Assembly (NCBI RefSeq): GCF_003324165.1
Contig: NW_025407839.1
Coordinates: 611,708 to 675,707 of the forward strand
Direction of reading: 5' to 3'
DNA: 64,000 bases
Source: Naegleria lovaniensis
Taxonomy: Eukaryota; Heterolobosea; Eutetramitea; Acrasida; Naegleriidae
Both the position numbers and the translations under genes were made by a program. Shown piece after piece: positions 38,719 to 64,000 of the stretch (positions within the stretch are counted from its first letter, which is position 1; each line of letters starts with the position of its first letter). Under the pieces are notes generated by a model. That model was not told the origin of the DNA. It did no database searches and saw only the letters and a program-made list of their open reading frames with translations.

Positions 38719-40242
38719 TTAATGTGAAAATTGCAAACTGTGTTCCTTGTCGCTCTTCTTCTTACATTTCTTACCATCTTCACAAGGATGGACGAACCTA
38801 TTGATATGCACCTCATTCGAAATATTTCTACATTTGGCTCCATTTCTACAAGGATGATAATATTCTTCTACATGTTCCTGATTGGAAGTCTCCGTACATT
38901 CGTCCCAATCCTTACACTTTTTCTTGTTCACGATCGACTTGGGTTTTGAAGCACTGGAAGTCATCGTACCTTGTTTTTGCTGCTGGCTTGATGTTTGAGA
39001 CTGTTGTTGAGCTTGCGAAGGTTGTTGTTGCAGTTTGGACGCGTTACTACTTTTAGGAGCCAGTAAGGAAACATCCCAAGCTTGTTGGGAGTAATAGTTG
39101 GGAGGAAGTGGTTGATGATGGGATGCTCCAGGTGTGAAATTTGTTGTTGTCATGCTATTCATCATTGGAGGTTGTTGTTGAGTATGGTAAAATGTGTGTG
39201 GAAAATTTCCATGCTGCATTTGTTGTTGCTGTTGTGGATGAAAGGATGATGAATACATGGAGGGCATAGTTGGTTGTTGGTAATTCATTATTGGTTGTTG
39301 TTGTTGTTGTTGTGATTGCAACATCTGATAATTTGCATTCATAACCAAATTTGGATGAGAGACTTGTGCATTGTTTTGATAGTATTGGGAATATGGATTG
39401 GAGTTTGACATGGTGCTTTGAGTCATCGTTGGAACACCTGAATTCTGAATAGATGAAGACTGCATCATGGAAGGAGGAGGACCTTGATACGTCGAATGCA
39501 TGTTCGTTGTTGTTGGTTGAAAACTCATTTGAGAATTTGACATGAAGGACATGTTTTGTGATTGGATGGTTGAATTCCCATTTCCCTGCTGCACGATCGG
39601 TGATGGTTGTGAAGAAGAAGTTACATTCATTGTAGGTGTTAAATTTTGATTCAATTGTTGATTTAAGCTAAACAATGAATTTGACAATTGAGAATTCCCT
39701 TGTATGGATGTTTGTGAAATTACTTGTGGTGGTGTGGAATTGGTTCCATTCGAATATTGTTGCTGCTGCTGATGAACCATTCCTTGCTGCATTGGTTGAT
39801 TCATTACGGAAGAGCTAACACTCATGTTATTGTTGTTGATGTTGTTAGGATTGATGAACGGATGATCATAACCATTCAGTGATTGTTGTTGAAAAGGTGA
39901 AGTCTGACTGGTCGAGCCATGATGGTTCTGTGGTTGTTGCAAATTCATATCTTGATGGTGGGAAGGTCGTGGGTTCAAATCTTGTCCACCTGATGATGAT
40001 TGCTGCAATAAGAGCTTCGCTTGCTGGCTATTGAAATTACATTGTGCCAACGCGGAAATGATGGTATTTTGTGGGAGATGGGGAAATTGTTGACTGAGAA
40101 CGGATATTATAATTTCTTTGAGTTTGGCTGTTTTGTTTTCTTGTGGAATGCTGCTGTTGTTGTTGGTGATGGTGGAAGAAGCTTCGACGTGATTTTCATG
40201 TTGGAAAGACTGGTGTGGTTGGTTGTTGGTGTTTGGTTCCAT
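38719..40242 (-). CDS. Gln/Asn-rich protein with CUE-like N-terminus and three PBZ-like zinc fingers
   Basis: The first in-frame ATG is 40242-40240 (an upstream TTG is rejected), giving 507 residues in one exon. Residues ~35-75 (IISVLSQQFPHLPQNTIIS ... ALAQCNFNSQQAKLLL) resemble a CUE/UBA-type ubiquitin-binding helix bundle with an FPHLP turn. About 300 residues follow that are very rich in Gln, Asn, Ser, Met and Pro, including a run of 6-7 Gln, as in prion-like proteins. The C-terminal 65 residues contain three tandem fingers C-x5-C-x7-H-x5-H (CKDWDEC, CRNGAKC, CEDGKKC), a PBZ-type pattern. There is no enzyme domain, so an adaptor or granule-scaffold role is inferred. Its nearest relative in the window is the neighbouring PARP. 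Confidence 0.75.
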   Translation of the reverse strand: MEPNTNNQPHQSFQHENHVEASSTITNNNSSIPQENKTAKLKEIIISVLSQQFPHLPQNTIISALAQCNFNSQQAKLLLQQSSSGGQDLNPRPSHHQDMNLQQPQNHHGSTSQTSPFQQQSLNGYDHPFINPNNINNNNMSVSSSVMNQPMQQGMVHQQQQQYSNGTNSTPPQVISQTSIQGNSQLSNSLFSLNQQLNQNLTPTMNVTSSSQPSPIVQQGNGNSTIQSQNMSFMSNSQMSFQPTTTNMHSTYQGPPPSMMQSSSIQNSGVPTMTQSTMSNSNPYSQYYQNNAQVSHPNLVMNANYQMLQSQQQQQQPIMNYQQPTMPSMYSSSFHPQQQQQMQHGNFPHTFYHTQQQPPMMNSMTTTNFTPGASHHQPLPPNYYSQQAWDVSLLAPKSSNASKLQQQPSQAQQQSQTSSQQQKQGTMTSSASKPKSIVNKKKCKDWDECTETSNQEHVEEYYHPCRNGAKCRNISNEVHINRFVHPCEDGKKCKKKSDKEHSLQFSH

Positions 40243-40334
40243 TTTTTTTGCGTGATTGGCATGTGTCAAATGTTGTGAACATGTGTGAGAATTCAGTCTT
40301 TAATTTCAAAAATAGATGTAAAGAATGTGAGGAG

Positions 40335-42185
40335 TTAATTGTAGGTAATCAAGTATTCTGGATACACTTGAGTTTGGTCATAAAACATAATTTCCTGTCC
40401 ATTCCACCCAGTCACACTATCATACAATTGTGTTGTTGAACCTGGTTTCACTGGAGGCCTTTTAATTGAGCCCATCGTTGTGATACCTGGTATTGTATAT
40501 GTGTCTCCAACAAGTCCTCTCACCACAAATATATATTTTGGATTATTATTATTTGCTGATGCATAGGTATCTGAATATCTCGAATAAGGGCTGGTATAGA
40601 TTGCAAAGCCAAATTTACCACTTCCGCTTACACGTGGATCTAATCCCTGTTCAGCAATTAAATCAATATATGCTAAATGGGTTCCATGAAATAATTGTGT
40701 TTCGTTGTGTAAACTTCCCATTTTCTTTCTTTTTTGACAAAATCTAAACCATAGTAAATAATTTTCAATTCTCTCAATAGAGATAATGGTCTTGGTAGTT
40801 GTTATGGTTTTGTTGAAGAATTGTTGCACTTGTTGATATTCAGCAGTGCTGGATGCGATTTTCACTTTGGCAAAGTGAGGCTTTTCTAAGGGATTTTTGC
40901 TTAATTTTGGTGGAGGTGGTGTCACCCAAGTCTGTGGCCATTCATATTTCACGAGGTTGGAGCTGTCAGAACCAACTGGATGAGAAAAAAGAACAATGTG
41001 AGGCATCATATCAATTCCTTCCAGGAATTTCTTACAACTCGAACCTTCAGGGCATGGATGAATAAAGTTTCGAGAATGAGCTTTGACGTTTTTCTGGGTA
41101 CATTGGGATTTGAATCGACATGGATGGAGAAATAAATTCTTGTGCTCCTGATTTGAATCTAATTCCTTACACTTTTCGCCTTCTCTACATATGTGTCTAT
41201 ATGAAACCATGTGATACCTATTGGAACTCTTGGAACATTTCATAGCGCTGATACAAATGTCTTTAGCTCCTGGATACGTGTATGTTGATGTGACTGGCTT
41301 ATCATCTCTATAATGAATGAAAAAGGTGCAATGCTCTCTGTCTTGTAATTTGGTGCATTTGCCTTGAGGTTGGCTGCATGGATGTAAATAACGATTTCGA
41401 TGTCCTGGTTGATTCATATTCTTACAAGAAGTGCCAAATTTACATGGGTGAAAGAAGTTTTCAACATGATCTTGATCATTTGTTTTTTTGCATAAATCCC
41501 AATCTTGACAAGGTTGTTTTTCAGTGATGGATTTGATAGGTTTCATCAGGGTGTCATCTGTGTTAGTACGTGTGGACAGAGAAATGGGAGGCATTGAAGA
41601 GAGCGTATTGCTACTCATCATCAAATTGCCATTGACAAATGAAGGATTGCAATAGGGTCCGCAGTAACTTGTTGATAACATGTTGTCATGAAAGTGATAT
41701 GGTGGCACCGTGCTGTTGTTGACAGGAGTTGCTGTGATCATGGAATTTGGTATGGATGGATTCACATTCATAGAAGGATAACTGGAAGTTGACGCAAAAT
41801 GATACTGATACGGTTGTGTATTATTTCCCATCATGGAATTCTGTGGATACAAATTACTGCTACTTGCATGCATGGATGGACTGATCATCACAGAATTCAC
41901 CATGGATTGTTGTTGCGATAAATTCATCGGCGCCATGGAAGGGGATGTATGAGAAAAATTACAGGGCTGTGAATGTGCGAATGATGAATTCCCCATTGAT
42001 GTACCTTCCTGGTGGCTCATGTTCTGTAAGACTGTCAGCACTTGATCCTTCTCGTAATTCGATTGTTCCAATAATGTTTGAATTGTACTTTCATTCACGT
42101 GCGGAAACTGAGTGTGCAACAGATGAATGACTTCACGTTGTAACGGGTCTTCCTGTGAGAAATTGTTGTTGCTTGGAACGAACAT
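40335..42185 (-). CDS. PARP-family ADP-ribosyltransferase with CUE-like domain and about seven PBZ-like fingers
   Basis: ATG 42185-42183 gives 616 residues; the GTG at 42257 is rejected. Residues ~15-60 (EVIHLLHTQFPHVNESTIQT ... EQSNYEKDQVLTVL) are CUE-like. A Ser/Met/Asn-rich linker precedes a block (~210-400) of seven fingers, mostly C-x5-C-x6-8-H-x5-H. The last has a longer Cys-His gap. The catalytic domain begins near IERIENYLLW and contains the NAD-binding H-Y-E set: His in LFHGTH (~500), Tyr in AIYTSPYS (~530) and Glu in GQEIMFYD (~598). The sequence up to YPEYLITY is typical of the PARP7/10-15 group, but Glu is kept where many of those have Ile/Leu, so polymer formation is possible. 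The fingers should bring it to ADP-ribose. Confidence 0.88.
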   Translation of the reverse strand: MFVPSNNNFSQEDPLQREVIHLLHTQFPHVNESTIQTLLEQSNYEKDQVLTVLQNMSHQEGTSMGNSSFAHSQPCNFSHTSPSMAPMNLSQQQSMVNSVMISPSMHASSSNLYPQNSMMGNNTQPYQYHFASTSSYPSMNVNPSIPNSMITATPVNNSTVPPYHFHDNMLSTSYCGPYCNPSFVNGNLMMSSNTLSSMPPISLSTRTNTDDTLMKPIKSITEKQPCQDWDLCKKTNDQDHVENFFHPCKFGTSCKNMNQPGHRNRYLHPCSQPQGKCTKLQDREHCTFFIHYRDDKPVTSTYTYPGAKDICISAMKCSKSSNRYHMVSYRHICREGEKCKELDSNQEHKNLFLHPCRFKSQCTQKNVKAHSRNFIHPCPEGSSCKKFLEGIDMMPHIVLFSHPVGSDSSNLVKYEWPQTWVTPPPPKLSKNPLEKPHFAKVKIASSTAEYQQVQQFFNKTITTTKTIISIERIENYLLWFRFCQKRKKMGSLHNETQLFHGTHLAYIDLIAEQGLDPRVSGSGKFGFAIYTSPYSRYSDTYASANNNNPKYIFVVRGLVGDTYTIPGITTMGSIKRPPVKPGSTTQLYDSVTGWNGQEIMFYDQTQVYPEYLITYN

Positions 42186-42322
42186 TGTGTTTTTTTCAAA
42201 ATGAAAATTATTAATAATTTCAAGATAATGAATTCTATTGACTAAACAATCGATCACGTTAACTCCCTAGACATTGACATCTTGATTTCAGGCCTTTCAT
42301 GTCATGGGCAACAAGATAAAAA
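42186..42322. promoter_or_regulatory. Divergent promoter region, PBZ-PARP / EEP nuclease
   Basis: Only 137 bases separate the two divergent start codons, so their promoters must overlap. The + side start is preceded by an A-run (AAAAAATGG). Confidence 0.5.
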
Positions 42323-43918
42323 ATGGTTCTTTCTTCATCATCTACAGGTCGCCGGAATGAGACTCCCTCTCATCATCAGCAAAATATTTCATTTGATGAA
42401 ATTGATGAAGGCCTACTCTCGCAGTTTCAACAAGCTCTTCAACAAAATGGAACCACATCATCCTCTCCTCGCTCTATAATCGATCATGATGATCATCACC
42501 CGAACCCAATTTCATCCTTTCTCCAATTCCAAATGAAAAAGGAAAACGAAGAGTCTTGTTCCTTTCTCATTTTTTTAGTATTCGATTTGGAAACGAATCA
42601 TTTCACTCCAATGAATAATTTCCCATCCTTGGCTCGACACCTATGCTACCACGAGAATTCTGTAAAGCAATTGATTGACACTCGAGTGCTCGAGTTGAAA
42701 AAATTTGGAACCACTCGTATCCGAATGGATTATGTCAGAACAACAAGTTCACAACAACAAGGTTCAACAAATCATCATGATTTTCTTCCGTGGCATGGTC
42801 ATGTCGTTATTTTGACAAAACAATATTTACAGAGCTCTTTGATCGATGCTCAGTCATGCATGGAAATGATGCGTGAATTGGCCAAGAGAATTTCCTTTGA
42901 TTTGAATTATTATCAAGTTAAAACGTTGATTCTATTTCCTCTGATGTTTCATTCGCAATTGTATGAGTTTAAATATTGGAACAAGTATGGATGCAAACCT
43001 GAATTCTGGAAGGACGCGTTTTCTACTCATTTGCAAACCGTTCAACAATGTTATGTCATTTCACAACCAGGAACGACATGGGACAATCGAAGAAACAACT
43101 TTACAGTGGTCACTTACAATTTACTCGCTCAAAGTTATATCAGAGACAAGCTCTATTATTACTGCAATAAGGAAGATTTGAAAGAAAATGTTCGTGCTCA
43201 GAGAATACTCAAACAATTGCAAGAAATAGAAGGAGACATTTTAATGTTTCAAGAAATAGAGAGCAATGTGTTGCGAGTCGTCAAGAATGCTGTCACCGAT
43301 GCGTTTTCAATTTTTGAAAAGAAGAAAGACCGTGAAGAAGGATTGGCTCTTGTTATTGACAAGATGTATTGGGATGTCCTGGATTCTGGCTGTTATGTAT
43401 TGAAATTAGATGAACCTCAGAAAATGGTCTATGCCATATGTGTTCACAAAAAAACCAAACGCAAAATTATTGTTGCCACAACCCATCTAATTGGTGATCC
43501 ACAAAAGTTAGATGTGCAAGCCGAGCAAGCGAACTCTGCCATTAATTTACTTACTTTTATACGAGAGCAGCATGATTTTAAATCGGATATCAAGTGTTCT
43601 GCAATCATTATTGGAGGAGATTTCAATGCAGATGTTCGTTCTAAATGCTATTCTCTCTTTTTGAACAATGGATACAAGAGCTCTGTTAAGGAAATTCATG
43701 GAAACGAACTTGAAATTACTTTTAACACCAATTCCATTCATAAGTGCATTGATTTTTTGTTTGTGAAAACATGTAGTCCACTAGGTCAGCAGCCCCAAGT
43801 GGACTGCAATAAGAGTATACATCAACCTCAAATTATCATTAAGGAAAATGAATTTCTTCCCAACCAAATTCATGGCTCAGACCACATTCCCGTCTATGCT
43901 TGCTTTTCTGTGAATTAG
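42323..43918 (+). CDS. EEP-family nuclease (CCR4/nocturnin/ANGEL type), no zinc fingers
   Basis: One exon of 531 codons runs from ATG 42323, after an A-run. Residues 1-250 form an uncharacterised region, with low-complexity His/Ser at the start and then a mixed alpha/beta stretch. Residues ~255-530 are an endonuclease/exonuclease/phosphatase fold. Its metal and catalytic motifs are visible in order: VVTYNLLAQ, LMFQEIE, ATTHL, GGDFNAD and SDHIPV. This set fits RNA 3' deadenylases, 2'-phosphodiesterases and nocturnin-like phosphatases better than DNase I or APE. The active site looks complete. It sits inside the PBZ cluster, and a second EEP enzyme at 46007-47881 carries the fingers instead. 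Confidence 0.87.
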   Translation: MVLSSSSTGRRNETPSHHQQNISFDEIDEGLLSQFQQALQQNGTTSSSPRSIIDHDDHHPNPISSFLQFQMKKENEESCSFLIFLVFDLETNHFTPMNNFPSLARHLCYHENSVKQLIDTRVLELKKFGTTRIRMDYVRTTSSQQQGSTNHHDFLPWHGHVVILTKQYLQSSLIDAQSCMEMMRELAKRISFDLNYYQVKTLILFPLMFHSQLYEFKYWNKYGCKPEFWKDAFSTHLQTVQQCYVISQPGTTWDNRRNNFTVVTYNLLAQSYIRDKLYYYCNKEDLKENVRAQRILKQLQEIEGDILMFQEIESNVLRVVKNAVTDAFSIFEKKKDREEGLALVIDKMYWDVLDSGCYVLKLDEPQKMVYAICVHKKTKRKIIVATTHLIGDPQKLDVQAEQANSAINLLTFIREQHDFKSDIKCSAIIIGGDFNADVRSKCYSLFLNNGYKSSVKEIHGNELEITFNTNSIHKCIDFLFVKTCSPLGQQPQVDCNKSIHQPQIIIKENEFLPNQIHGSDHIPVYACFSVN

Positions 43919-43996
43919 GGTCACTTTTTTTGGAACGTGATCCACACTCTTGACAACTGACAAGAATTCACGTCAATATTAAAACACGCAAAAAAA

Positions 43997-45913
43997 ATGC
44001 TTCCTTCCACAAGTTGCTCTCCCGTGTTTACTATGCCACCATGGTGCTTGGATATTAGTTATAAGAAGCCATGCACAATTCCTAACTGTCCTGTCAATGA
44101 TTTTAGTGATGCACATTTTTACCATTATTATCACGAGTGTCCCTTTGGCCAACAATGTGAGTGGTTCAAACTTTGTTGTTGCAGCCATGATCAAAATGCT
44201 AAATATCACTGCAATCTTTTCAATCACTCTTTAACCGGAGATGAACAATTGTTATTAGAAAATTCATTGGAGCACAATGCTTCTTCCCAAATTCAAGATG
44301 GAAGAAGAATGTCACTCACAAGCGTCGGATCTGCTTGTTCATCTAAATCTTCCTCTTCTCGGCCTAAAAATGTTTGCTGGTATGGCACAAAATGTCGTAT
44401 GGCAGAGAGAAGAGACCAAACTCATCTCTCCAACTACCTTCATGTGTGTCCTAATGTTCAATCCTGTCGAAACAGAGAACCAGAACACCTACAGCAGTTT
44501 TTACATAAATGTCATAAAGGAGAAAAATGCACGGACAAATCACAGGAACATAGAGATCAATACATGCATATTTGTTCGTATGGAGAAAAGTGTAACCATC
44601 TTTCTGACTCTAGTCCTGATTCCCATTGGGGACATTTTACAAGATATTTACATCCTGTATGTTTTGAAGGAAAGAACTGCTCTCAATGCAAGTCTCAAGA
44701 AGTGAAGAGTCAAGGACATAGAGATTTCTTTTGCTTATTGGGCCACCATGACGATGATGTTTCGCCCACCATCCAAAAAAAGCAGCCAGAGATTCAAGGC
44801 CTTACCTCAAAAGACAAGAGCAACATGCGTCCCCATGTCACAGAATGGAAACGATCTGCCTCTATCCCACTTACCTCTCCCTCTGGTTATAAATTCATTG
44901 GATGGGAAAGAGCAACAGGAAACAACACTGCGACTGGAAAAGTTGTCCTGTTTAAAAAGACCGATAAGGGTGTTTTTGAAGGGCATATCAAAACTGAAGA
45001 GGTCACAAATGTCAGTTTTCCCACCAATCAAATTGAGCAACCATGGTATCGAAATAGAGTGTGTATTTATAAGAACCAACTTATCGTGTCAGTATTCAAG
45101 AATGCATTATCTGGGAGGCTCACTGGAGTAACTCCAAGTGCCACGTATCTCGACGTCATGAATTACATTGTAAGCTGTGGAGTACCAGTGTTCATTGTTG
45201 GTGGAGCTGTTAGAGATGTGTTGTATGCTGTTTTGAAGGAAAACGAAACCAATGTTCAAACTATTATTTCAAAGGTCAAAGATATTGATATTGGTTTTGG
45301 TTGTCCAACACAAGAATTTTACAATATTCTTTGCAAAAAGTATTCAGCAGGTATACAACCTCCAGGACCAAGAGGTCTCATTGTCGTTGGTAATACGAAT
45401 GGCAATTTTTTGGAAGGCAAGGCCCTTAATGGATTGAACAACGACAACAAATCAGTGAAAGATGACATTCCACAATGTTTTGGCACTGATTTAGTTGGAG
45501 AAAATATATGTAGAGATTTCACCTGTAATTCGTTGTGGTATGACCCTATCAATGAATGTATTATAGACCCTATTGGAAGGGGACAAGGAATCAAAGATAC
45601 ATTGAATAAGGTTTTAAGAATTCCTGTTAAAGAAAAGTATAGAATCTTTTGGGCAAAGGGAAATCCCTCCAAAATTATGAGATACTACAAATTCCTTCAA
45701 AAAGGATACAGGCCTGCTGATGATGGTACTCGGGAATTCATCATCAAGATGGCAAAAAAGTTTTCGGCAACCGACATGGAATGCCGAAATCAGCTAGTCA
45801 GGGGAGTGATGAACTCAAAAACCGATGCTGAAGCTCAGCAAAAGAAAGCCTCTTTTTTAAAGTTACTGGAAAAAGATGTCGGGACTCAGAGGCTTAAGGA
45901 GTTGTTCCCTTAA
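43997..45913 (+). CDS. PBZ-like finger protein fused to a poly(A)-polymerase/CCA-type nucleotidyltransferase domain
   Basis: ATG 43997 follows seven A's. The product is 638 residues. The first ~240 residues contain about six Cys/His fingers of the PBZ type; clear ones are CPNVQSC-x6-H-x5-H and CHKGEKC-x6-H-x5-H, others have longer gaps. After a variable linker, residues ~390-600 hold a class II nucleotidyltransferase head: VFIVGGAVRDVLYA, then the metal-binding DID (KDIDIGF), then CRDFTCNSLWYDP and an IDPIGRGQGIKD segment. KIMRYYKFLQKGYRP matches the RxxRF-x-x-(R/K) element of the CCA-adding/poly(A) polymerase family. Catalytic residues appear intact. Whether it adds CCA, poly(A) or something else cannot be read from the sequence. 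Fusion to PBZ-like fingers is unfamiliar to me. Confidence 0.83.
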   Translation: MLPSTSCSPVFTMPPWCLDISYKKPCTIPNCPVNDFSDAHFYHYYHECPFGQQCEWFKLCCCSHDQNAKYHCNLFNHSLTGDEQLLLENSLEHNASSQIQDGRRMSLTSVGSACSSKSSSSRPKNVCWYGTKCRMAERRDQTHLSNYLHVCPNVQSCRNREPEHLQQFLHKCHKGEKCTDKSQEHRDQYMHICSYGEKCNHLSDSSPDSHWGHFTRYLHPVCFEGKNCSQCKSQEVKSQGHRDFFCLLGHHDDDVSPTIQKKQPEIQGLTSKDKSNMRPHVTEWKRSASIPLTSPSGYKFIGWERATGNNTATGKVVLFKKTDKGVFEGHIKTEEVTNVSFPTNQIEQPWYRNRVCIYKNQLIVSVFKNALSGRLTGVTPSATYLDVMNYIVSCGVPVFIVGGAVRDVLYAVLKENETNVQTIISKVKDIDIGFGCPTQEFYNILCKKYSAGIQPPGPRGLIVVGNTNGNFLEGKALNGLNNDNKSVKDDIPQCFGTDLVGENICRDFTCNSLWYDPINECIIDPIGRGQGIKDTLNKVLRIPVKEKYRIFWAKGNPSKIMRYYKFLQKGYRPADDGTREFIIKMAKKFSATDMECRNQLVRGVMNSKTDAEAQQKKASFLKLLEKDVGTQRLKELFP

Positions 45914-46006
45914 TATTTTTTTTTACAAAATATAAATTAATTTGAGTGATTTTTTGAAATTGGAGTTTTTGGATAGCGGTGATTTGTTTTATTGCTAGTT
46001 CAGGTT

Positions 46007-47881
46007 TCAATTAAACATTTGAAAGGTGGCAGTAATAGGGATATGATCCGAACCAAATTCATCATTTGGAATGGTGCTTTTCGGAAGGAAAATTGGCTCT
46101 GGATCACTACTTGTCACTTTCAAATTTCCGAAATACATGATATAATCACACACTTTGGTATACGTGGTGGAGAAGGTCCAAAATCCAGTTCGATCTTGAT
46201 GTGCTCTTTTTAAGTTCAAACTTTCCATAAACTTCACTGGAGTTTCATGTGGTTGAGTATTGAAATCACCTACGAGAATTAGGGACACTCGATTCGTAGC
46301 ATACTGTTGAGATACTTGTGAATGGAGAGAGTGAAGAACTTCAGCCATTCGTTTCACTTGATTTTCTCTTGGAGTGATCGTGTCTTGCTGAAATGTCAAA
46401 TGACAATTCATTACAATCAAATAGGAATTGGAGAGAAGGTCTCTCAAAACAACATATTGAAAAACTTCTGGATATCCCTCAATGATTCTTTCACCTCCTG
46501 ATCCTATAGCTTGTCCAAATCGATTAATTTTGAACATGATTGCCACACTATCTTTTTTTCTTGGAAGCTTGTCTGAAATAAAAATGGAATATCCATTGTT
46601 TGTTGCAAAATCTGCAAAGTCGTTTTTGTGGCTTTGATCAACTTCTTGCAGTCCAATAATGTCGAACGGACGATCTTTGAGAGCTTGAAATATTTTTTGC
46701 TTTCTATTGCTCCATTTCAAATGATTGATATTTGCAATGTGTGAATATCGTTCAGCACTCACATAACAATCTGCCAACACATTGTAGGACATGACAATTA
46801 ACGGAGGAATGACAGGTTGAGGAATGCCATCATTGGATGTTAACATGCCATAGTTCGCGTTGTTGGACATGTACATGTTGTTTTGACCTCCTTGTTGGTG
46901 ATTACATGTATCATGTGGTTGCTGTTGTGGAAAGTGTTGCTGGTTTGGAAAAGTGGGTGTCTGAGAATGGTATGGGATGGGTGAAGTGGCACTACCTCCC
47001 ATACTCGAAAGTGGTGGATACATGGAATTGTTGAATGGGCTCGAAACAGCTACATTGGAATACGATGAAGAGGTAATACCATGTACAGAAGTTTGCTGGT
47101 TATGAGGCACCGATGTGTTTGAATACTGTGAATGATACGGATGTCGAGTAGTAGTACTGCTGATGGAATGTCCCATGTTTAAAGATCCTGAATGATGAAC
47201 ATGTTCTCCTGAGGTATTGACTGCTAATGAGTGGTACTGTCCATGGCTTGTTCCAGAAGAGGCTGTGTTGGATGTACTTGTATGGGTCTTCGACTTGGAA
47301 TTCGAATTGGAATTCGAAACGGAATTACCATTATTCTTGGGTTTCTGCGCCACGTGAGGTTTTGTTGGGTTGTGACAATCCATCCAAACTGGACTTCGAT
47401 CCTCATGTAAACAACTAAAACGATGGTATGGATCTTGATTGGTACATTTGGAACCATATTTACAAGGATGGAAAAAATCTTCACAATGCGCTTCATCGTT
47501 GTACTTTCTACATTCATCACCATATCGACAAGGATGATAAAATTGAGTGGTATGTTCAACCTTGTTTGTTAAAGAGCATTGACCCCAATGAGGACATCGA
47601 AGTTTTAAAGTTCCGTTTCCAGAGTCATGATCAAATACAAGTTTGAAAAGTTGTGCCACAAATGTCGGTTTTTCGGGATGAGTGAAAGTCAAGTTATGTT
47701 TGACATCATTCGAAAGTGAACATTTATCTTGGAAGGGACATGGATGAATGAACCATTCGGTGTGTTTTGCGTTGTGTAGCGAACGACACTGTTCTCCGTA
47801 TTTGCATGTGTGGAGATATTGGTTTTTATGATCGGGATCATTTGTGAAAGCACAAAATGTGTCGTGTTTGCATAAAGGCAT
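46007..47881 (-). CDS. EEP-family nuclease with six PBZ-like zinc fingers
   Basis: ATG 47881-47879, preceded by seven A's, begins MPLCKHDTFC, directly in the first finger; the longer upstream frame lacks an ATG in good context and reads as noise. The product is 624 residues. Two groups of three fingers (C-x5-C-x6-7-H-x5-H) occupy residues ~4-75 and ~100-170. A ~170-residue Ser/Asn/His-rich linker follows. The C-terminal ~260 residues are an EEP nuclease with VMSYNVLAD, GLQEVD, MNCHL, LVGDFNTQ and SDHIPI. The active site is complete. The domain resembles CCR4/ANGEL-type RNA 3' nucleases or 2'-phosphodiesterases. It is convergent with the nucleotidyltransferase and divergent (81 bases) from the second PARP. 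Confidence 0.87.
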   Translation of the reverse strand: MPLCKHDTFCAFTNDPDHKNQYLHTCKYGEQCRSLHNAKHTEWFIHPCPFQDKCSLSNDVKHNLTFTHPEKPTFVAQLFKLVFDHDSGNGTLKLRCPHWGQCSLTNKVEHTTQFYHPCRYGDECRKYNDEAHCEDFFHPCKYGSKCTNQDPYHRFSCLHEDRSPVWMDCHNPTKPHVAQKPKNNGNSVSNSNSNSKSKTHTSTSNTASSGTSHGQYHSLAVNTSGEHVHHSGSLNMGHSISSTTTRHPYHSQYSNTSVPHNQQTSVHGITSSSYSNVAVSSPFNNSMYPPLSSMGGSATSPIPYHSQTPTFPNQQHFPQQQPHDTCNHQQGGQNNMYMSNNANYGMLTSNDGIPQPVIPPLIVMSYNVLADCYVSAERYSHIANINHLKWSNRKQKIFQALKDRPFDIIGLQEVDQSHKNDFADFATNNGYSIFISDKLPRKKDSVAIMFKINRFGQAIGSGGERIIEGYPEVFQYVVLRDLLSNSYLIVMNCHLTFQQDTITPRENQVKRMAEVLHSLHSQVSQQYATNRVSLILVGDFNTQPHETPVKFMESLNLKRAHQDRTGFWTFSTTYTKVCDYIMYFGNLKVTSSDPEPIFLPKSTIPNDEFGSDHIPITATFQMFN

Positions 47882-47962
47882 TTTTTTGGAACGTGAATTG
47901 GTTGTGTCGTGTGTCAAATGTCGAGCAGCTAACGTGATGGTTTCATCAGTTGTTTCAAAAAA
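47882..47962. promoter_or_regulatory. Very short divergent promoter, PBZ-EEP / PBZ-PARP
   Basis: The start codons of the two divergent genes are 81 bases apart. Each is preceded directly by a run of A on its own strand. The two genes almost certainly share promoter elements and may be co-expressed. Confidence 0.55.
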
Positions 47963-49417
47963 ATGTATCCCAACAATCATAACCAGCATTATCAACAGCA
48001 AACTCCTTTTAACCAAGTTCCAAATCATGTAGATCATCACCAACAACTCTTTTTCATGAACCAACCTTCCATGATTCATCCCAATGTGTATCATCAATCG
48101 TCGGTTGTGAATGGAACAGCTCCTTCTTCCTTTCCGAATTCCAATTTGAATTACTATCCCAATTCGTCTGTGATGATGAACAACAATCCACAACAAAATT
48201 TTTTTTCAAATTCTCCTCAAAACACGTGTCTTGTTCCTTCGTCTCAACCTTTGCAAATGAATATTCATTCTTCTTTTTACCAAGATCCAGCCTTATCCTT
48301 TGGTCATTGGCAACCAGCCTCTCATTTCAGTGGTCCTGTGATCATGCCAACAGCACACGTACATGGTCAGAATGTTTCTCACATCAAGAATGGGCAAAAA
48401 AGTCCTCAAACAGAAACGAGATCAGCATCATCGTCGACTTCCTCACAACCAAAGAATGATTCTGACAAGAAGGATGAAATTCCTGAAGCTTCGAACTTTT
48501 GCCTGAACTGGAAAAGATGTTCTCTCACTCGAAGCGATCCTCAACACAAGTGTGAATTTCGTCATTTATGTACCATTAAAAATTGTGACAAATGGAAGGA
48601 CAACAAAATTCATAAAGCCAGATTCATTCATATTTGTGCTCATGGAGAACAATGTCGATATCAAGATAACGAAGATCACAATCACAATTTTATTCATCCA
48701 TGTTCATTTGGAGGTAAATGCAAATATTTGAATGATCCACTTCATAGAATTCGTTTTTCTCACAACGATTTAGAAGTTGACGATAGAAATTTTGACTGGC
48801 CAGAGACGTGGACCACTTCTCCACCCTTGTCCATTACCAAATGCTTGGTGAACAAGAAGAATTACACTCGATTATTTTCCCTTCCCAAGAACTCGGATGA
48901 ATTCAAGAAGATCGAATCAAAATTTGTGAAATCTATTCATCACTCTTATTCTTCTGCTCAAGTGGTCAAAATTGAAAGAATCGAGAATGCTCAAAAATGG
49001 GAAGAATATATCACTGCTCGTTTTCAAATCAAGTCAAAGAACAATGGAAAAGCCAATGAAAAGATTCTATATCATGGGTGCGATGATGCAACAGCACTGA
49101 AAATTATTGAAAGCGGTATCGATTATCGTTTAACCACAACTGGTCATTATGGTCAGGGTGCTTACTTTGCTGTCAATGCAAGCTACAGTCATGGTTATGC
49201 ACCTGCAAGCTCCAATGGACATCGAACTATTTTCATGTGTCGAGTGATAATTGGTGAGCCTATGGTCGTTCCAAGCCAAAACAAAAATTTGACAAGACCC
49301 TATGACCCCACCAAGGACAAGATGTATGACAGCGTTCAGGGCAATCCAACAGGAACAGAATTTGTTATTTTTGACAACAAGCAAGCATATGCTGAGTATT
49401 TGGTTACTTACAAATAG
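47963..49417 (+). CDS. Second PARP-family ADP-ribosyltransferase with four PBZ-like fingers
   Basis: ATG 47963 follows an A-run. The product is 484 residues in one exon. The first ~170 residues are Asn/Gln/Ser/Pro-rich. Four fingers at ~180-270 include CAHGEQC-x7-H-x5-H and CSFGGKC-x7-H-x5-H; the second has a shorter C-x4-C. A WPETWTTSPP segment is shared with the PARP at 40335-42185 (WPQTWVTPPP), supporting paralogy. The catalytic domain has His in LYHGCDD (~371), Tyr in GQGAYFAVNASYS (~401) and Glu in GTEFVIFD (~466), the complete H-Y-E set, and ends YAEYLVTYK. It lacks the CUE-like N-terminus of its paralogue. It should transfer ADP-ribose from NAD; the target is unknown. Confidence 0.88.
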   Translation: MYPNNHNQHYQQQTPFNQVPNHVDHHQQLFFMNQPSMIHPNVYHQSSVVNGTAPSSFPNSNLNYYPNSSVMMNNNPQQNFFSNSPQNTCLVPSSQPLQMNIHSSFYQDPALSFGHWQPASHFSGPVIMPTAHVHGQNVSHIKNGQKSPQTETRSASSSTSSQPKNDSDKKDEIPEASNFCLNWKRCSLTRSDPQHKCEFRHLCTIKNCDKWKDNKIHKARFIHICAHGEQCRYQDNEDHNHNFIHPCSFGGKCKYLNDPLHRIRFSHNDLEVDDRNFDWPETWTTSPPLSITKCLVNKKNYTRLFSLPKNSDEFKKIESKFVKSIHHSYSSAQVVKIERIENAQKWEEYITARFQIKSKNNGKANEKILYHGCDDATALKIIESGIDYRLTTTGHYGQGAYFAVNASYSHGYAPASSNGHRTIFMCRVIIGEPMVVPSQNKNLTRPYDPTKDKMYDSVQGNPTGTEFVIFDNKQAYAEYLVTYK

Positions 49418-49502
49418 CAATTTATTGTCTGTACGATCGTAATAATTTAGTGCAACGTTCATGTTCATCAGCTTTTGTTATTAATTAATTTAATTCAAAA
49501 AA

Positions 49503-51005
49503 ATGAGTTCATCATCATCAAGCGGAGGTTCTTCCGATCCAACCAGTAACTCGGCACCAAACAACAAGAGTTATGCCATTGAAGGTGTTGGATTTGCTGT
49601 AGAACCATTACTGAATTGCCCACACTTTCATGATTCCAATTGTTTCAATATGCCGCACAATGATCGAAACGCTTTGAAAACTCTCTTTTCGACAATCATG
49701 ACAAAGGAAGATTCTTCTGACACCACCACCTCTGCACCTTGCTCTGTGTGTGGGGATAGAACGGAGAATTGGTTTTGTCTTCAATGTCATTCTGTTTGTT
49801 GTAGTCGATACAGGAAAGCACACATGATGAACCATTTTGAATCGACTCATCATCCAATGGTGTTAAGCTTGGCCGACTTGAGCATCTATTGCTACGCTTG
49901 CGATGCTTACGTAGACAATCGAGAGTTGACAAGACTCATCTTACGAGAATTACATGTAGCCAAGTTTGGAGAATATCCTGGCGGTCATGATGCAACTGTA
50001 GAAATCGGAGAAGCAATAGAACGATTGAAAGTTGATCAAAGAAAAATACATGAAACTGAACAAAAGGAACAAAAAGAGAATGAGGAAAGAGATCGTGCTA
50101 TTGAAATTTTAGCTGAAAAGATTTCACAAGCAGAAGAACGAGAAATTATTGTATTAACTGGAGCTGGTCTTTCAACTGCTGCAGGAATACCTGATTTCCG
50201 TTCACCAGGAACTGGTCTATATGACAATCTTCAAAAATATGATCTTCCTCGACCAACAGCAATATTTGAACTGGAATACTTTCACGAAAATCCAAAACCA
50301 TTCTTTCTTCTTTCTAGAGACTTTATCTCAACTGGATACAAACCAACACGAGCTCACTACTTTATAAAACTGTTAGAACAAAAAGGAAAGTTACTGAGAT
50401 TATACACTCAAAATATTGATGGTCTAGAGGCAAAATCTGGAGTTTCAAATGAGATATTGGTAAATTGTCATGGAATGTATGATACTGCTCATTGTACAAA
50501 ATGTAGAAAGAAATACACTCTTGCTGAGGTAGTAGAAAAGATGGGTACTGAAGAGGATGTTACTATTCCACTTTGTGACAAATGTTGTGGTTTCATTAAG
50601 CCTGACATTGTTCTCTTTGGAGAAGATTTACCTCACAAGTTCAGCAAATGTGTGAAATCAGACTTGAAGCACACATCTTCAAAATGCAAGCTCTTCATTG
50701 TAATTGGTACATCCTTGACTGTGCATCCTGTAGCCATGTTACCTGAACTTGTCAAGAAAGGATGTACAAGAGCTCTCTTGAACAGAGAAAAAGCTGGTCC
50801 ATTCAAACAACATGAAGGTTATGTTACAGAAATAGGAGAAGAGTCGAACTATTTGGACTTGTTTGTGGGTGGTACAGATCTCACAATTGATGAAAGTGTG
50901 AATCGTCTGTGCAAATTATTGGGATGGGAAAAAGATTTGGAAGAATTGGTAGAACAAGGACCTGTAGACCTTGTTGAGAAGAGTAAAGAGGACGAAGAGC
51001 ATTAA
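49503..51005 (+). CDS. Sirtuin (NAD-dependent deacylase) with N-terminal UBP-type zinc finger
   Basis: A 500-residue single-exon gene starts at ATG 49503 after an A-run. Residues ~25-145 form a ZnF-UBP, the ubiquitin C-terminus-binding finger of HDAC6 and USPs, with CSVCGDRTENWFCLQC ... CSR-x-x-KAHMMNHFESTHHP ... CYACDAYV. Helical Glu/Lys-rich linker follows. The SIR2 core shows GAGLSTAAGIPDFRSPGTGLY, TQNIDGLE, the catalytic His323 in NCHGMYD, a zinc site with CTKC and CDKC, KPDIVLFGE and GTSLTVHP, most like the SIRT2/3 class. The enzyme consumes NAD and makes O-acetyl-ADP-ribose, which links it to the neighbouring PARPs. A ubiquitin-binding sirtuin is unusual for animals, though UBP-sirtuin fusions may occur in protists. 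Confidence 0.92.
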   Translation: MSSSSSSGGSSDPTSNSAPNNKSYAIEGVGFAVEPLLNCPHFHDSNCFNMPHNDRNALKTLFSTIMTKEDSSDTTTSAPCSVCGDRTENWFCLQCHSVCCSRYRKAHMMNHFESTHHPMVLSLADLSIYCYACDAYVDNRELTRLILRELHVAKFGEYPGGHDATVEIGEAIERLKVDQRKIHETEQKEQKENEERDRAIEILAEKISQAEEREIIVLTGAGLSTAAGIPDFRSPGTGLYDNLQKYDLPRPTAIFELEYFHENPKPFFLLSRDFISTGYKPTRAHYFIKLLEQKGKLLRLYTQNIDGLEAKSGVSNEILVNCHGMYDTAHCTKCRKKYTLAEVVEKMGTEEDVTIPLCDKCCGFIKPDIVLFGEDLPHKFSKCVKSDLKHTSSKCKLFIVIGTSLTVHPVAMLPELVKKGCTRALLNREKAGPFKQHEGYVTEIGEESNYLDLFVGGTDLTIDESVNRLCKLLGWEKDLEELVEQGPVDLVEKSKEDEEH

Positions 51006-54555: not shown

Positions 54556-57500
54556 TCATTCAAGATCTTCCGTGTTCAAGTTATCAATAGTTGCAGTCTC
54601 AAATAGATTCTTCCGTAAAAGTTGAAACAAATCAGGACAGAGTGACCTTAAACCATTTGAATCAGGGTTCATAATTAAATATTTTCCTTTTTCAGTATAA
54701 TCTTCAGTAAAACCGACACCTTTCTTTGTTGTGATTTGTTTATATTTTACGTGTATGTGCGCTATGAGGGGTATTAGTCTCTCATTGTTTGTTAACGTGG
54801 TTATAAACTCCTGTTTCTCAGTTGTCCACCAGCTACAGCCTGCAATAAGGTTGGTACCAAATTTTTCTTTGTAAAAGTTATTCGCGTTCACAGATTTGAC
54901 TCCTTTTTTAACATGTTCTAAAAATTTGTCTCTCTGGCAATTATGTAATTTGTTGCTCACAATAATACCATAAGGTTGCTCCGAAAAGTTCAAACAAATA
55001 CCATCAGCATGACAATATTCCGAGGGATAAAAATATAATCCATCAATTATGTCTGCAAATGTACTGATATTATTAGCAGAGCTCTCATACTCTTCCATAT
55101 GTTTGTTATAGTTTAACAAGCAATGAAAATATAACACATCTCCCAAAATGTTTTTGTTACTTGAGTTCTCTTTTTTGAAGACTTCTTGAGCCCATTTTGA
55201 CGTGTAATATTTGCGATAAAAATCGTTAGATCGAATAAATGACTTGATCACAAATTTGTGGTCAAGTAATTGAGAATATGGTCTTTTCTTTCTCTCTGTT
55301 GTTGTGTCAGAATTTTCACCTAATATTAATGGTGAAAGAATCAAGTTGTCCTTAATAAACTTTCCACTATGGTGCTGTAATAAAAGAGAAAATACCATTT
55401 CCCATTTCTTAGGATCATGTTGAGGAAGAGTTAATAGAGAATTCAATACTGAGATTGAATTATTGACTTTTGAAATTGAGTTTGGATATTTCTGTTCTAA
55501 AACTTTTCGTGCAACATGCCTAAGAATTGGATCTGAGGTATCAAAATGATACTTGTTGCTGTTGGAACAAAAGTCAAAATTTGGTTTTGCTAAACCAGTT
55601 CCTATTAATGAAGAAGCTAATTCTCTATCGCAACTAATTGATTTCCCTAAAAAGGCATCGTATTCATTTGTTACCACAACGTCCAACAAAAAATTAGCAT
55701 CAAGACGGTCTTTTGACGTTTTTTGACTCAACCTATTCAACACATTTTTTTCCACCTGACCCACAAACTCTTCCCATTTGTCAGTGAAGCTTTTTTTGAG
55801 AGACGTTGTTATTTCTAAATGAGAGGCAACAAGTCCAACTACTCTTCTTCTTGTTGGGAAGATGTGTTGAACAGAGCGATAAAGGTCAGTTTTGGAGGTA
55901 TTGGATAATTTTAAAATTCCTTCAATATCATACATTTTGTCTAATATTTGTAATGCTTGCTCAAAAGTGATGGAGTCTAAACCAACGCATGAGTAAACAC
56001 GAGCTATGTCCTCCAATTTTCCAATAGAGGATTGAATGATATCAATAATGTCAGTGGTAAACATGGTTCCACAATAAATATCACTAATTTTCACACTAAT
56101 TTTCATAAAAGACTTTTGTCTAAGTCGAGAAATTTCGAACGCAATCAGTGACAATAAATCCCTGGGTGTACCATTTGTAGATAACATCGGAGTACGGATG
56201 TTGGAGAAAAGATTTGCCTCGTCAAGAGCAATAATAAATGGTTGCTCAAGATCCAGCTTTAACCGTGAATATAATTGTTCGATCAAAAATATTGTGAAAT
56301 CTCTTAATATTTCAGTAGGTACAGAAAGCCATTGACGTTCTAACAATTTTTTGAATATGGTTGCTGTAATGTATGTATTAACATTCCATTGGGAGTAGGA
56401 CAGCATTTGAAGAGGAGTTTCAAATGGTATTTTGTTATCTGTTTTTTCCCATATGGTTAATGCGGTATGAAGGCACAATAATCTTGCAATAAGATTACAT
56501 TGAACTTGTTGAAGAGCAGTACCATAGAGCTTGATAATAGATTGGTTCATTGTCGCTACAAATACTTCTCTCAACAGAACAGAAGCATGATCAATTCCAC
56601 GCTCCGTAAGCCGATCTTGATCAGTCAGAGATGAGCATGTTATCATGATTCCTGGATTGACTCCTAATCTTCTTGCAAGCTGTAGAACGAATTAGTTTAA
56701 AGTTTGACAAATGAAACAATAATAAAATAATAATTACCAAAGCAGTTTTACCCACACCTGAGGGTCCAATTATGCAAATTGTTGAGCCATCACGAATTTT
56801 TTGGTCCAACGTCTTTCTTTCATCTTCATTGAACAGATCTACTTGTAATTTTGGGATGAAGGGAAACAAATCTTTTGTTATCTTCTTCTCGGAGTTAATT
56901 GGAACAAGAACATCTCTTACAAACTGGGAAGAGCAGCGTTCGTTAAAGGGAGTAAGCAATTTCCTCATAAACAACGCGTCTTCATGAGAGCCCTCCAAAA
57001 GATCATTCACCATGTTTTTCATGACTGTCTCAAACTTAGATTTGTTCAATATACTTTCTGTATTTACGTTGCTGAATACAATATCTCTTGCATTTGAAAC
57101 AAGTGCTATTAAATCGAGAGTGTAACTCTCTTTCTCGGAGGGAGTTCTATTATCTTGAGCATGGCCCTTCATTACTAAATCACAGAACGACAAGTACCAT
57201 CGTTTGTGTGTATCCGGCATGTTCGTCTGTTTTGCATAGAAATCAATTTTACCTTTAAGAATCTCATCTGCCTTAAACAACACTTCTCTTTCACTGCTTG
57301 AGAAATAATGGAAGGGTGGCACCCACATGTCCATATTCTGTAAATGAATTTGAATGTTATTGTTTTGTAGTAGAAATTGTGTGACCCACTGGACAACTAT
57401 TGTGCCCAAATTCAAGTCAAGATTTCTAATGACGGAGGTTTGCTTGGAAGAGACTACATCTTTTGCAATGCTATGGAGAGTTTTGCTATCTAATGAAGAA

Positions 57501-58159
57501 ACTTGATCAAGACTCAAATCAGCACCTCCTTTTGCAATTGGTTCGCCCAATTTTTGTTTAATTTTTTTGCTCACTGGCTCCAATTGCCATAGTGAATAAT
57601 GTCTGGTCATTAATTGATCGAGCACCCAAAATACAACAGTTTGACAAGTGTCGGAGAGTTGAAAAGTCATTTGAAAACCACTGTCTGTTAAAGTGTTCTT
57701 GAATTGATCAAGAGCAAAGTATTCATCCTTCTTCATTATATCCCCAACAATGTTGTGGAGATTTGTGCCTTTAAAATCAGCAACATACAAAGGCTTCACA
57801 TCGGCAAGCGACAAACCAGCACCACCCAAAGATTTAGGAGCAGTAAATACAGAAGCTACTTGTTGCGCGTTCCAACTCTCGTAATCCATCAAATTGAGAG
57901 TGATTGGTTCGGAGGATGAAGGTGCTGAAGTATTTGTAGTTGCGATGGTGTAAGTACGTATTTGGCCAAATGTGGTTGTTGTTGGACAACACAATAATTT
58001 GTTGTTCGGAACAATTAAATTTGGTTTGTTGGACAGAACAGACTTGAAAACACAATTTCTTAAGCAAAAATATTGTCTTGTTGTTTTGGTGAGGCTCGAA
58101 GTGTGGCTGTTGTGGGAAATTAGCCGTTGAACGATGCTACTGGAGCCTGTTCTCTTCAT
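54556..58159 (-). CDS. Large P-loop NTPase, possible Crinkler/RHS-like subtelomeric protein, two exons
   Basis: Exons 56738-58159 and 54556-56679 join across a 58-nt intron (GTAATT...CTACAG) placed within the P-loop region. They give 1181 residues from ATG 58159-58157. Residues 1-70 are basic/Ser-rich and could be a mitochondrial or other targeting leader. Two related helical segments at ~95-250 (SLGGAGLSLADVKPLYVADF and KGGADLSLDQVSSLDSKTLH) look like tandem SAM-like repeats. Walker A is GPSGVGKTA (~465-473) and Walker B FIIALDEANLF (~622-630). A C-terminal region has ADGIC-x11-IVSNKL, weakly like a PD-(D/E)xK nuclease core. This NTPase-plus-nuclease plan and the subtelomeric site recall Crinkler/RHS proteins; STAND-type NTPase is an alternative. 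Confidence 0.6.
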
Positions 58160-63466: not shown

Positions 63467-63570
63467 TCTACTCTTTGGGTTTACTCTTTGGGTTTACTCT
63501 TTGGGTTTACTCTTTGGGTTTACTCTTTGGGTTTACTCTTTGGGTTTACTCTTTGGGTTTACTCTTTGGG
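63467..63570 (+). repeat. Array of the 13-mer TTTACTCTTTGGG, eight units
   Basis: Seven perfect units (63480-63570) follow one nearly perfect unit (63467-63479). Each unit ends in the telomeric hexamer TTTGGG and adds TTTACTC. The array directly joins the telomere, so it is telomere-associated sequence or a variant-repeat zone. Confidence 0.9.
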
Positions 63571-64000
63571 TTTTTTGGGTTTGGGTTTGGGTTTGGGTTT
63601 GGGTTTGGGTTTGGGTTTGGGTTTGGTTTGGGTTTGGGTTTGGGTTTGGGTTTGGGTTTGGGTTTGGGTTTGGGTTTGGGTTTGGGTTTGGGTTTGGGTT
63701 TGGGTTTGGGTTTGGGTTTGGGTTTGGGTTTGGGTTTGGTTTGGGTTTGGGTTTGGGTTTGGGTTTGGGTTTGGGTTTGGGTTTGGGTTTGGGTTTGGGT
63801 TTGGGTTTGGGTTTGGGTTTGGGTTTGGGTTTGGGTTTGGGTTTGGGTTTGGGTTTGGGTTTGGGTTTGGGTTTGGGTTTGGGTTTGGGTTTGGGTTTGG
63901 GTTTGGGTTTGGGTTTGGGTTTGGTTTGGGTTTGGGTTTGGGTTTGTTGGGTTTGGTTTGGGTTTGGGTTTGGGTTTGGGTTTGGGTTTGGGTTTGGGTT
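63571..64000 (+). repeat. Telomere, (TTTGGG)n
   Basis: About 430 bases of the hexamer TTTGGG/GGGTTT run to the end of the window. The G-rich strand runs 5' to 3' toward the end, as at a right chromosome end. Occasional units are short (TTTGG or TTGGG, for example near 63620-63630 and 63935-63960). The array shows no other sequence. Confidence 0.93.

Follow-up and report, generated by a model that had tools for sequence, protein, structure and literature searches.

A compact gene cluster of Naegleria lovaniensis in which PBZ-like finger arrays accompany PARP, nucleotidyltransferase and phosphodiesterase domains

Organization of the cluster

We analysed a 64,000-nucleotide stretch of Naegleria lovaniensis DNA (assembly GCF_003324165.1, contig NW_025407839.1, positions 611,708 to 675,707), hereafter the window, which is the last 64 kb of its contig (C19) in a genome of 30.7 Mb and 97 contigs. 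The adenosylhomocysteinase encoded in this genome departs from PDB 5v96, the Naegleria fowleri enzyme, at 11 of 440 aligned residues, which agrees with a source in another Naegleria species. Seven genes, g1 to g7, lie side by side at window positions 38719–51005, and five of them encode tandem Cys2-His2 (CCHH) fingers that resemble the PBZ fingers of APLF. A sequence-only reading of the window had proposed that the seven genes form one module that makes, binds, processes and, through a sirtuin, erases ADP-ribose. The list of open reading frames (ORFs) and Pfam searches confirm the seven neighbours and their fusion partners; each gene is open in one frame, at or near the span given in that reading. 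The six genes that we interpret together are:

g1, 38719–40242, minus strand: 507 aa; weakly CUE-like N-terminus, Q/N-rich middle and three C-terminal CCHH fingers
g2, 40335–42185, minus strand: 616 aa; weakly CUE-like N-terminus, seven CCHH fingers and a C-terminal PARP domain with H-Y-E
g3, 42323–43918, plus strand: 531 aa; CCR4-like EEP phosphodiesterase without fingers
g4, 43997–45913, plus strand: 638 aa; about seven finger units, some long-looped, then a further stretch and a PolyA_pol-head nucleotidyltransferase
g5, 46007–47881, minus strand: six CCHH fingers, a low-complexity linker and a CCR4/nocturnin-like EEP domain
g6, 47963–49417, plus strand: 484 aa; four CCHH fingers, then a PARP domain with H-Y-E

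The expected Pfam domains were found at or above their cut-offs: PARP in g2 and g6, PolyA_pol head in g4, Exo_endo_phos in g3 and g5, and SIR2 together with zf-UBP in g7. No enzyme domain was found in g1 (no Pfam match at E 0.1). The start of g5 is probably at 47881 rather than 48094, because the ATG at 48094 overlaps g6 and lacks the A-run that precedes most starts in the cluster. With this start, g5 and g6 diverge from a spacer of 81 bp, and the spacers within the cluster measure 78–137 bp. The rest of the window has 12 spacers between ORFs of at least 220 aa (smaller or spliced genes are outside the count), of which three are shorter than 140 bp and the others span 202–3890 bp. The cluster is thus compact, as had been claimed, but short spacers occur outside it as well.

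PBZ-like fingers and their apparent confinement to the cluster

Twenty-seven finger units are distributed over five of the seven ORFs (three in g1, seven each in g2 and g4, six in g5 and four in g6). They were counted from the translations, and one g4 unit, near residue 194, was added by eye. The earlier counts stand for g1, g2, g5 and g6; that for g4, about six, is revised to seven, of which four units are fairly regular and three have odd loops. The three irregular units were omitted from the alignment and the profile, which hold 24 of the 27 fingers. The 24 aligned fingers show no variation at any of the four ligand positions. C-x5-C is present in 21, the C-to-H interval is seven residues in 15 and six to eight in 22, and [FY] stands two residues before the last His in 23. 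The fingers fit the ligand skeleton C-x5-C-x6/8-H-x5-H of PBZ (zf-CCHH, PF10283). A strict scan for this pattern in six frames of the 64 kb gave only one match outside the five genes (at 23347, minus strand), which indicates that the pattern is more than chance.

When single fingers were searched against Pfam, zf-CCHH matched 11 of the 24 (E up to 10) and any other family at most two. The 24-finger profile had 18 matches in the PDB at E up to 10, and the two best are tandem PBZ structures of APLF (E 3.9e-5 and 4.1e-5). They are followed by Notch EGF repeats (E 4.5e-4), whose alignment is limited to the first half of the finger; ZC3H12A, a CCCH protein, matches at E 0.014. PBZ1 and PBZ2 of APLF score 18.9 and 22.2 bits, above all of 200 shuffles in which the Cys and His columns were kept. 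Trimming the profile to the finger core gives 23.2 and 17.7 bits for APLF PBZ, compared with 13.7 and 12.4 bits for ZC3H12A and Notch. An AlphaFold2 model of three fingers has a pLDDT of 79 and finds four PDB matches with Foldseek, two of Nab2 and two of APLF PBZ, at E 0.48–3.6, none of which is significant; the APLF match 2kqc covers 22 columns at 1.1 Å. Judged from these comparisons, the fingers are most likely divergent relatives of PBZ, and binding of poly(ADP-ribose) is a putative property.

The finger blocks of g5, g2 and g6 were used to search the whole 30.7 Mb and returned 8, 7 and 7 matches, respectively. All 22, self-matches included, fall within C19:650426–660479, which is the cluster. 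These searches score the best candidates and single fingers score low, so they could overlook an isolated finger in another place. The g1 fingers are identical to the first g2 fingers at 26 of 53 positions (49%), and the N-termini of both proteins resemble CUE below the cut-off (E 0.12 for g1 and 0.0088 for g2); the two genes have the appearance of tandem duplicates. Between g2 and g6, collinearity extends over the whole set of four g6 fingers and the PARP domain, which correspond to the final four fingers and the PARP domain of g2 (33% identity). The idea of local duplication is supported by the confinement of the finger matches and by the g1–g2 identity.

The enzymes of the cluster

Both predicted PARPs match PF00644 above its cut-off (68.4 bits for g2 and 80.1 bits for g6; cut-off 26.7), and the alignments show that both keep the H-Y-E triad. 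The best PDB match of g2 is PARP12 (E 3.4e-22); that of g6 is PARP15 (E 9e-23), with PARP12 at 4.9e-21. The genome contains 18 PARP matches. In a strict finger scan of these 18 loci, each taken with 1.5 kb on either side, only the two cluster loci were positive. PARP domains elsewhere have other partners, among them a protein kinase (C24) and macro and WWE domains (C14).

At C14:14870–18418, a macro-WWE-PARP protein in which V replaces the catalytic Glu scores highest against the g6 catalytic domain after g6 itself. Open frames at C24:332597–336181 and C11:360504–363974 each join a kinase domain (Pfam 4.7e-34 in the former, by eye in the latter) to a PARP that keeps H-Y-E. At C25:324733–328050, a PARP is accompanied by ankyrin-like repeats and a CUE-like stretch, both seen by eye, that resembles the N-termini of g1 and g2.

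The g4 enzyme matches PF01743 (PolyA_pol head) at 33.9 bits against a cut-off of 23. Its translation contains GGAVRD, DID and RDFT, which agree with the GG, DxD and RD motifs of bacterial-type poly(A)/CCA nucleotidyltransferases. The curated models do not assign g4 as a PcnB or CCA enzyme, as their cut-offs were not reached: the NCBIfam PcnB model gives E 8.4e-10 and 38 bits, far below 305.65, and the CCA model 19.2 bits against 438.8. A phage tRNA nucleotidyltransferase family matches at E 7.4e-8, and the PDB offers a weak poly(A)-polymerase-like match (E 0.36). With E values up to 10 admitted, the genome yields no match to the enzyme besides g4 itself.

The EEP domain of g5 matches PF03372 at 50.6 bits (cut-off 24.5), and g3, described as an EEP nuclease without fingers, is confirmed exactly at that cut-off (24.5 bits). 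In the PDB, g5 is nearest to CCR4, CNOT6L, ANGEL2, CNOT6 and nocturnin. The nearest structures to g3 are 4b8c, yeast CCR4 (E 1.8e-12), ANGEL2 (2.3e-8) and PDE12 (0.0014), and CNOT6L is also listed. The catalytic motifs of EEP enzymes, N, E, DxN and SDH, are visible by eye in both translations. When the genome is searched with the g5 EEP domain, g3 ranks first after the domain itself (24% identity, E 2.2e-8), and a locus on C21 is close behind (1.5e-7). The PolyA_pol-head and CCR4-like domains support the description of g4, g3 and g5 as RNA-type enzymes.

Shared elements upstream of g1 to g6

Short sequences recur among the four spacers in which g1 to g6 have their starts:

40243–40273, plus strand: upstream region of g1, part of the spacer between g1 and g2; TTTTTTTGCGTGATTGG...TGTGTCAAATGT, which can be aligned to the upstream region of g5
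42253–42260, minus strand: AACGTGAT within the divergent g2–g3 spacer (42186–42322)
43926–43941, plus strand: TTTTTTGGAACGTGAT in the g3–g4 spacer
47882–47938, plus strand: elements of the divergent g5–g6 spacer, TTTTTTGGAACGTGA at 47882–47896, TGTGTCAAATGT at 47910–47921 and AACGTGAT at 47931–47938

The first 15 bases of TTTTTTGGAACGTGAT are repeated exactly in the g5–g6 spacer and otherwise have one match, with two mismatches, in the 64 kb. The upstream regions of g1 and g5 align over 40 columns. The three occurrences of AACGTGAT in the window are an ordinary number (2.4 expected by chance), and all three lie within 296 bp of cluster spacers (g2–g3, g3–g4 and g5–g6). About 109 kb of other loci hold seven distinct AACGTGAT sites; two that were inspected are coding. 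CGTGAT, which occurs 17 times in the window, is found in all four spacers. Random draws of four segments reached the k-mer statistic of the cluster spacers in 0, 2 and 0 of 1000 trials for k = 6, 7 and 8 when taken from noncoding DNA, and in 0, 1 and 1 of 1000 when taken from anywhere. In a pairwise test of eight spacers (28 pairs), every pair at or below 2/300 was formed within the four: g1–g2 with g5–g6 (1/300), g1–g2 with g3–g4 (1/300), g3–g4 with g5–g6 (0/300) and g2–g3 with g5–g6 (2/300). The confinement of the fingers and the common spacer elements together suggest that g1 to g6 were locally duplicated and are under common regulation.

The contig ends in a TTTGGG telomere-type repeat that begins at window position 63574, which makes the cluster subtelomeric; g1 to g6 are about 14 to 25 kb from the telomere. 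Seven 13-bp CTCTTTGGGTTTA units precede the TTTGGG repeat (window 63471–64000). At window 54556–58159, minus strand, two overlapping ORFs, one with weak P-loop matches, are perhaps one split gene near the telomere.

A putative ADP-ribose writer, reader and effector set

We favour, with a probability of about 45%, the reading that g1 to g6 are an ADP-ribose writer, reader and effector set, duplicated and probably co-regulated, around one family of PBZ-like arrays. PBZ fingers read the adenines of neighbouring ADP-ribose units, and two together bind more than 1000-fold better, as set out in a section of PMC4030884; arrays of three to seven would thus be strongly multivalent. The finger-PARPs g2 and g6 would most likely make ADP-ribose chains, a capacity made possible by the retained catalytic Glu. 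The arrays would bind this adenine-rich polymer with avidity, and could recruit the nucleotidyltransferase of g4 and the CCR4-like phosphodiesterase of g5 to substrates that carry ADP-ribose, perhaps RNA or RNA ends. In such a set, g1, with fingers alone, would serve as an adaptor and g3, which has none, as a partner nuclease, and the six genes may be expressed together. RNA as the substrate is a fair guess by analogy with PARP10, 11, 12 and 15, which are described in part of PMC9458441 as mediating RNA ADP-ribosylation in human cells.

The substrates of nocturnin, PDE12 and ANGEL2 are adenosine 2' groups or 2',3' ends, and on the strength of this chemistry a cluster nuclease might act on NAD(P)- or ADP-ribose-like molecules. 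A more specific proposal is a dedicated end-processing pathway, in which poly- or oligo(ADP-ribose) would be placed on RNA or polymer ends, the arrays would read its adenines, and the tethered enzymes would extend or trim the ends or the chain, all under one promoter element. We regard this pathway as unlikely.

Several results weigh against the writer, reader and effector reading. The first group concerns the identity of the fingers. None of the 24 matches the full PBZ consensus, [K/R]xxCx[F/Y]GxxCxbbxxxxHxxx[F/Y]xH as printed in an excerpt of PMC4030884, and for this reason we call them PBZ-like and not PBZ. Of the two adenine-contact positions of APLF (taken from portions of PMC6264785 and PMC4030884), the first, [F/Y]G, is present in 6 of 24 fingers and in none of g1, with two of the three irregular g4 units also having it by eye; the other, an aromatic residue at most three residues after the second Cys, is present in 5 of 24. 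The only whole-protein match to Pfam zf-CCHH at E 0.1 is g4 at 13.4 bits, below the gathering score of 22.7, and zf-CCHH and zf-CCCH have similar best E values for single fingers (0.00051 and 0.00079, respectively). The 18 PDB matches of the profile do not include CHFR, a known PBZ protein, ZC3H12A and Notch also score above all 200 shuffles, and the best Foldseek match is Nab2 fingers 5–7 (E 0.48). Of the PBZ assignment made earlier, a probable kinship with APLF and zf-CCHH survives; full membership in the family does not.

The second group concerns the enzymes and the promoters. PARP12 and PARP15, the nearest PARPs to g2 and g6 by sequence match, are named mono-ADP-ribosyltransferases in the PDB. 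In a tree of PARP catalytic domains from this genome only (12 rows, with the fragments at C26 and C38 and one at C27 left out; three of nine inner branches well supported), g2 groups with the C14 protein at 85/90 and not with g6, so two different PARPs may have acquired the fingers by shuffling. Two of the six pairs among the four start spacers are ordinary (g1–g2 with g2–g3, 159/300; g2–g3 with g3–g4, 110/300), and other pairs come close to the best ones: g2–g3 with g4–g5 (4/300), g5–g6 with E1–g1 (6/300) and g6–g7 with E1–g1 (8/300). The random control segments are not known promoters. The shared motif was spotted before it was tested, and we therefore treat the upstream elements as suggestive of a shared promoter motif.

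Alternative explanations

RNA binding by the fingers is the main and a serious rival, although we hold it somewhat doubtful. According to this explanation, the arrays are RNA-binding fingers in the style of Nab2 or of the CCCH fingers of PARP12 and ZAP, and the cluster would be a module of the RNA-tail or antiviral type: the fingers would choose the RNA, the nucleotidyltransferase would add nucleotides, the CCR4-like nucleases would take nucleotides off, and proteins or RNA ends would be modified by the PARPs. The closeness of the g2 and g6 PARP domains to PARP12 and PARP15 is consistent with it, as are the proximity of g4 to the PcnB and CCA models, the resemblance of the EEP domains to CCR4, CNOT6L, ANGEL2, and nocturnin (g5) or PDE12 (g3), and the place of Nab2 at the head of the Foldseek matches. 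A review finds the APLF PBZ fingers structurally most like tandem C3H1 fingers that bind single-stranded RNA (PMC4030884). The ligands, however, are CCHH with H-x3-[FY]-x-H and not CCCH, the profile favours APLF PBZ, the more so after trimming to the core, and CCCH models match at most two of the 24 fingers each.

It is also conceivable, but quite unlikely, that the cluster is simply the outcome of local duplication and shuffling of one finger-array gene, whose products share an ancestor and a neighbourhood and no pathway. Duplication is common near telomeres, and this view is supported by the short distance to the TTTGGG end, the tandem-duplicate appearance of g1 and g2 and the collinearity of g2 and g6. 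Against it, the shared elements also adjoin g3 and g4, whose enzymes are unrelated to PARP, and the presence of one finger family on different RNA-type enzymes would suggest a common target.

The sirtuin g7 is probably a neighbour outside the set. It is a strong match to SIR2 (189.1 bits; cut-off 24) and zf-UBP (71.6 bits; cut-off 22.7), and a genome search with g7 returned 13 matches, itself among them. Relatives on C29 and C22 are 68% identical over residues 239–498 and 54% identical over residues 187–488, respectively, and the N-terminal zf-UBP part is 76% identical to a match on C22. No finger arrays were seen by eye among the ORFs listed beside these three places, and neither CGTGAT nor the shared element is present in the g6–g7 spacer; we leave g7 out. 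Sirtuins deacylate and, to our knowledge, are not poly(ADP-ribose) erasers. The 11 macrodomain matches in the genome, and 10 PARG matches at about six places, all lie outside the cluster, which indicates that it holds writing and reading domains and not the known erasing ones. The single-module proposal keeps the shared upstream elements of g1 to g6 in its favour and loses the sirtuin as a member or eraser; the full make-bind-process-erase NAD module is highly improbable, despite the 85 bp that separate the sirtuin from g6 and their common use of NAD.

A 195-aa ORF on C22 (2113–2700, plus strand, of the segment 218000–223000) resembles the zf-UBP half of g7 without the SIR2 part. Two macrodomain loci, at C21:522991–523365 and C91:924–1298, have equal scores, and C91 may duplicate the end of C21 or represent an alternative copy of it.

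Relation to known systems and significance

SNM1A already joins PBZ to a nuclease. The fingers described here share with those of APLF, CHFR and SNM1A the CCHH ligands, C-x5-C, H-x3-[FY]-x-H and tandem use. They differ in forming arrays of three to seven, many with one residue between the last His and the next Cys, and in keeping [F/Y]G and the basic pair in few fingers. PBZ–PARP fusions are reported from Dictyostelium, Entamoeba, Capsaspora and lancelet in part of PMC4245714, and likewise combine a PBZ-type finger and PARP in one chain; here the PARP is PARP12/15-like and stands among nucleotidyltransferase and EEP finger fusions, which the cited part of that paper does not name. The same part describes a PARG with several PBZ repeats in the rotifer Adineta vaga, and an extract of PMC6264785 describes Ligase K, thought to process ends, which carries PBZ, with one or two fingers in the rotifer. 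Finger arrays and end-enzyme fusions thus have precedents, in other enzyme families, and the corresponding passages mention no gene cluster for the rotifer cases.

The closest catalytic sequences to g2 and g6 are those of PARP12, PARP15 and ZAP (clade 3), which also have fingers before a C-terminal PARP. A place for g2 and g6 in clade 3, with PARP7, PARP10, PARP12, PARP14 and PARP15, is a candidate placement. In the animal zinc-finger subclade 3E, isoleucine or valine replaces the catalytic Glu, according to a section of PMC2964712, whereas g2 and g6 keep it, have another finger type and give no Pfam match to WWE at E 0.1. The same section of this 2010 study places the Naegleria gruberi PARPs 72525 and 80603 outside all clades, as short proteins with a C-terminal PARP, H-Y-E kept and no known N-terminal domain. 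Their description is the one that g2 and g6 would receive with their fingers unrecognised, and they may be orthologues. CCR4, nocturnin, ANGEL2 and PDE12 are the EEP matches of g3 and g5, and g5 differs from them in its fusion to a finger array. In the literature searched, we found no finger fusions of a PolyA_pol-type nucleotidyltransferase or EEP enzyme, nor such a cluster with a shared promoter element.

PBZ fingers are mainly known from DNA-repair proteins, in which one or two of them act as readers, and rotifers supply a few cases of repeats (parts of PMC4245714 and PMC6264785). In Naegleria lovaniensis, a divergent PBZ-like form has been multiplied into arrays and joined to two PARPs, an enzyme of the tail-adding type and a nuclease of the tail-removing type, in an apparent regulatory unit. 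If the arrays bind RNA instead, PBZ and RNA-binding fingers would grade into one another. If they bind ADP-ribose, the cluster would be a natural link from ADP-ribosylation to the chemistry of nucleic-acid ends, and its arrays could serve as a multivalent laboratory reader.

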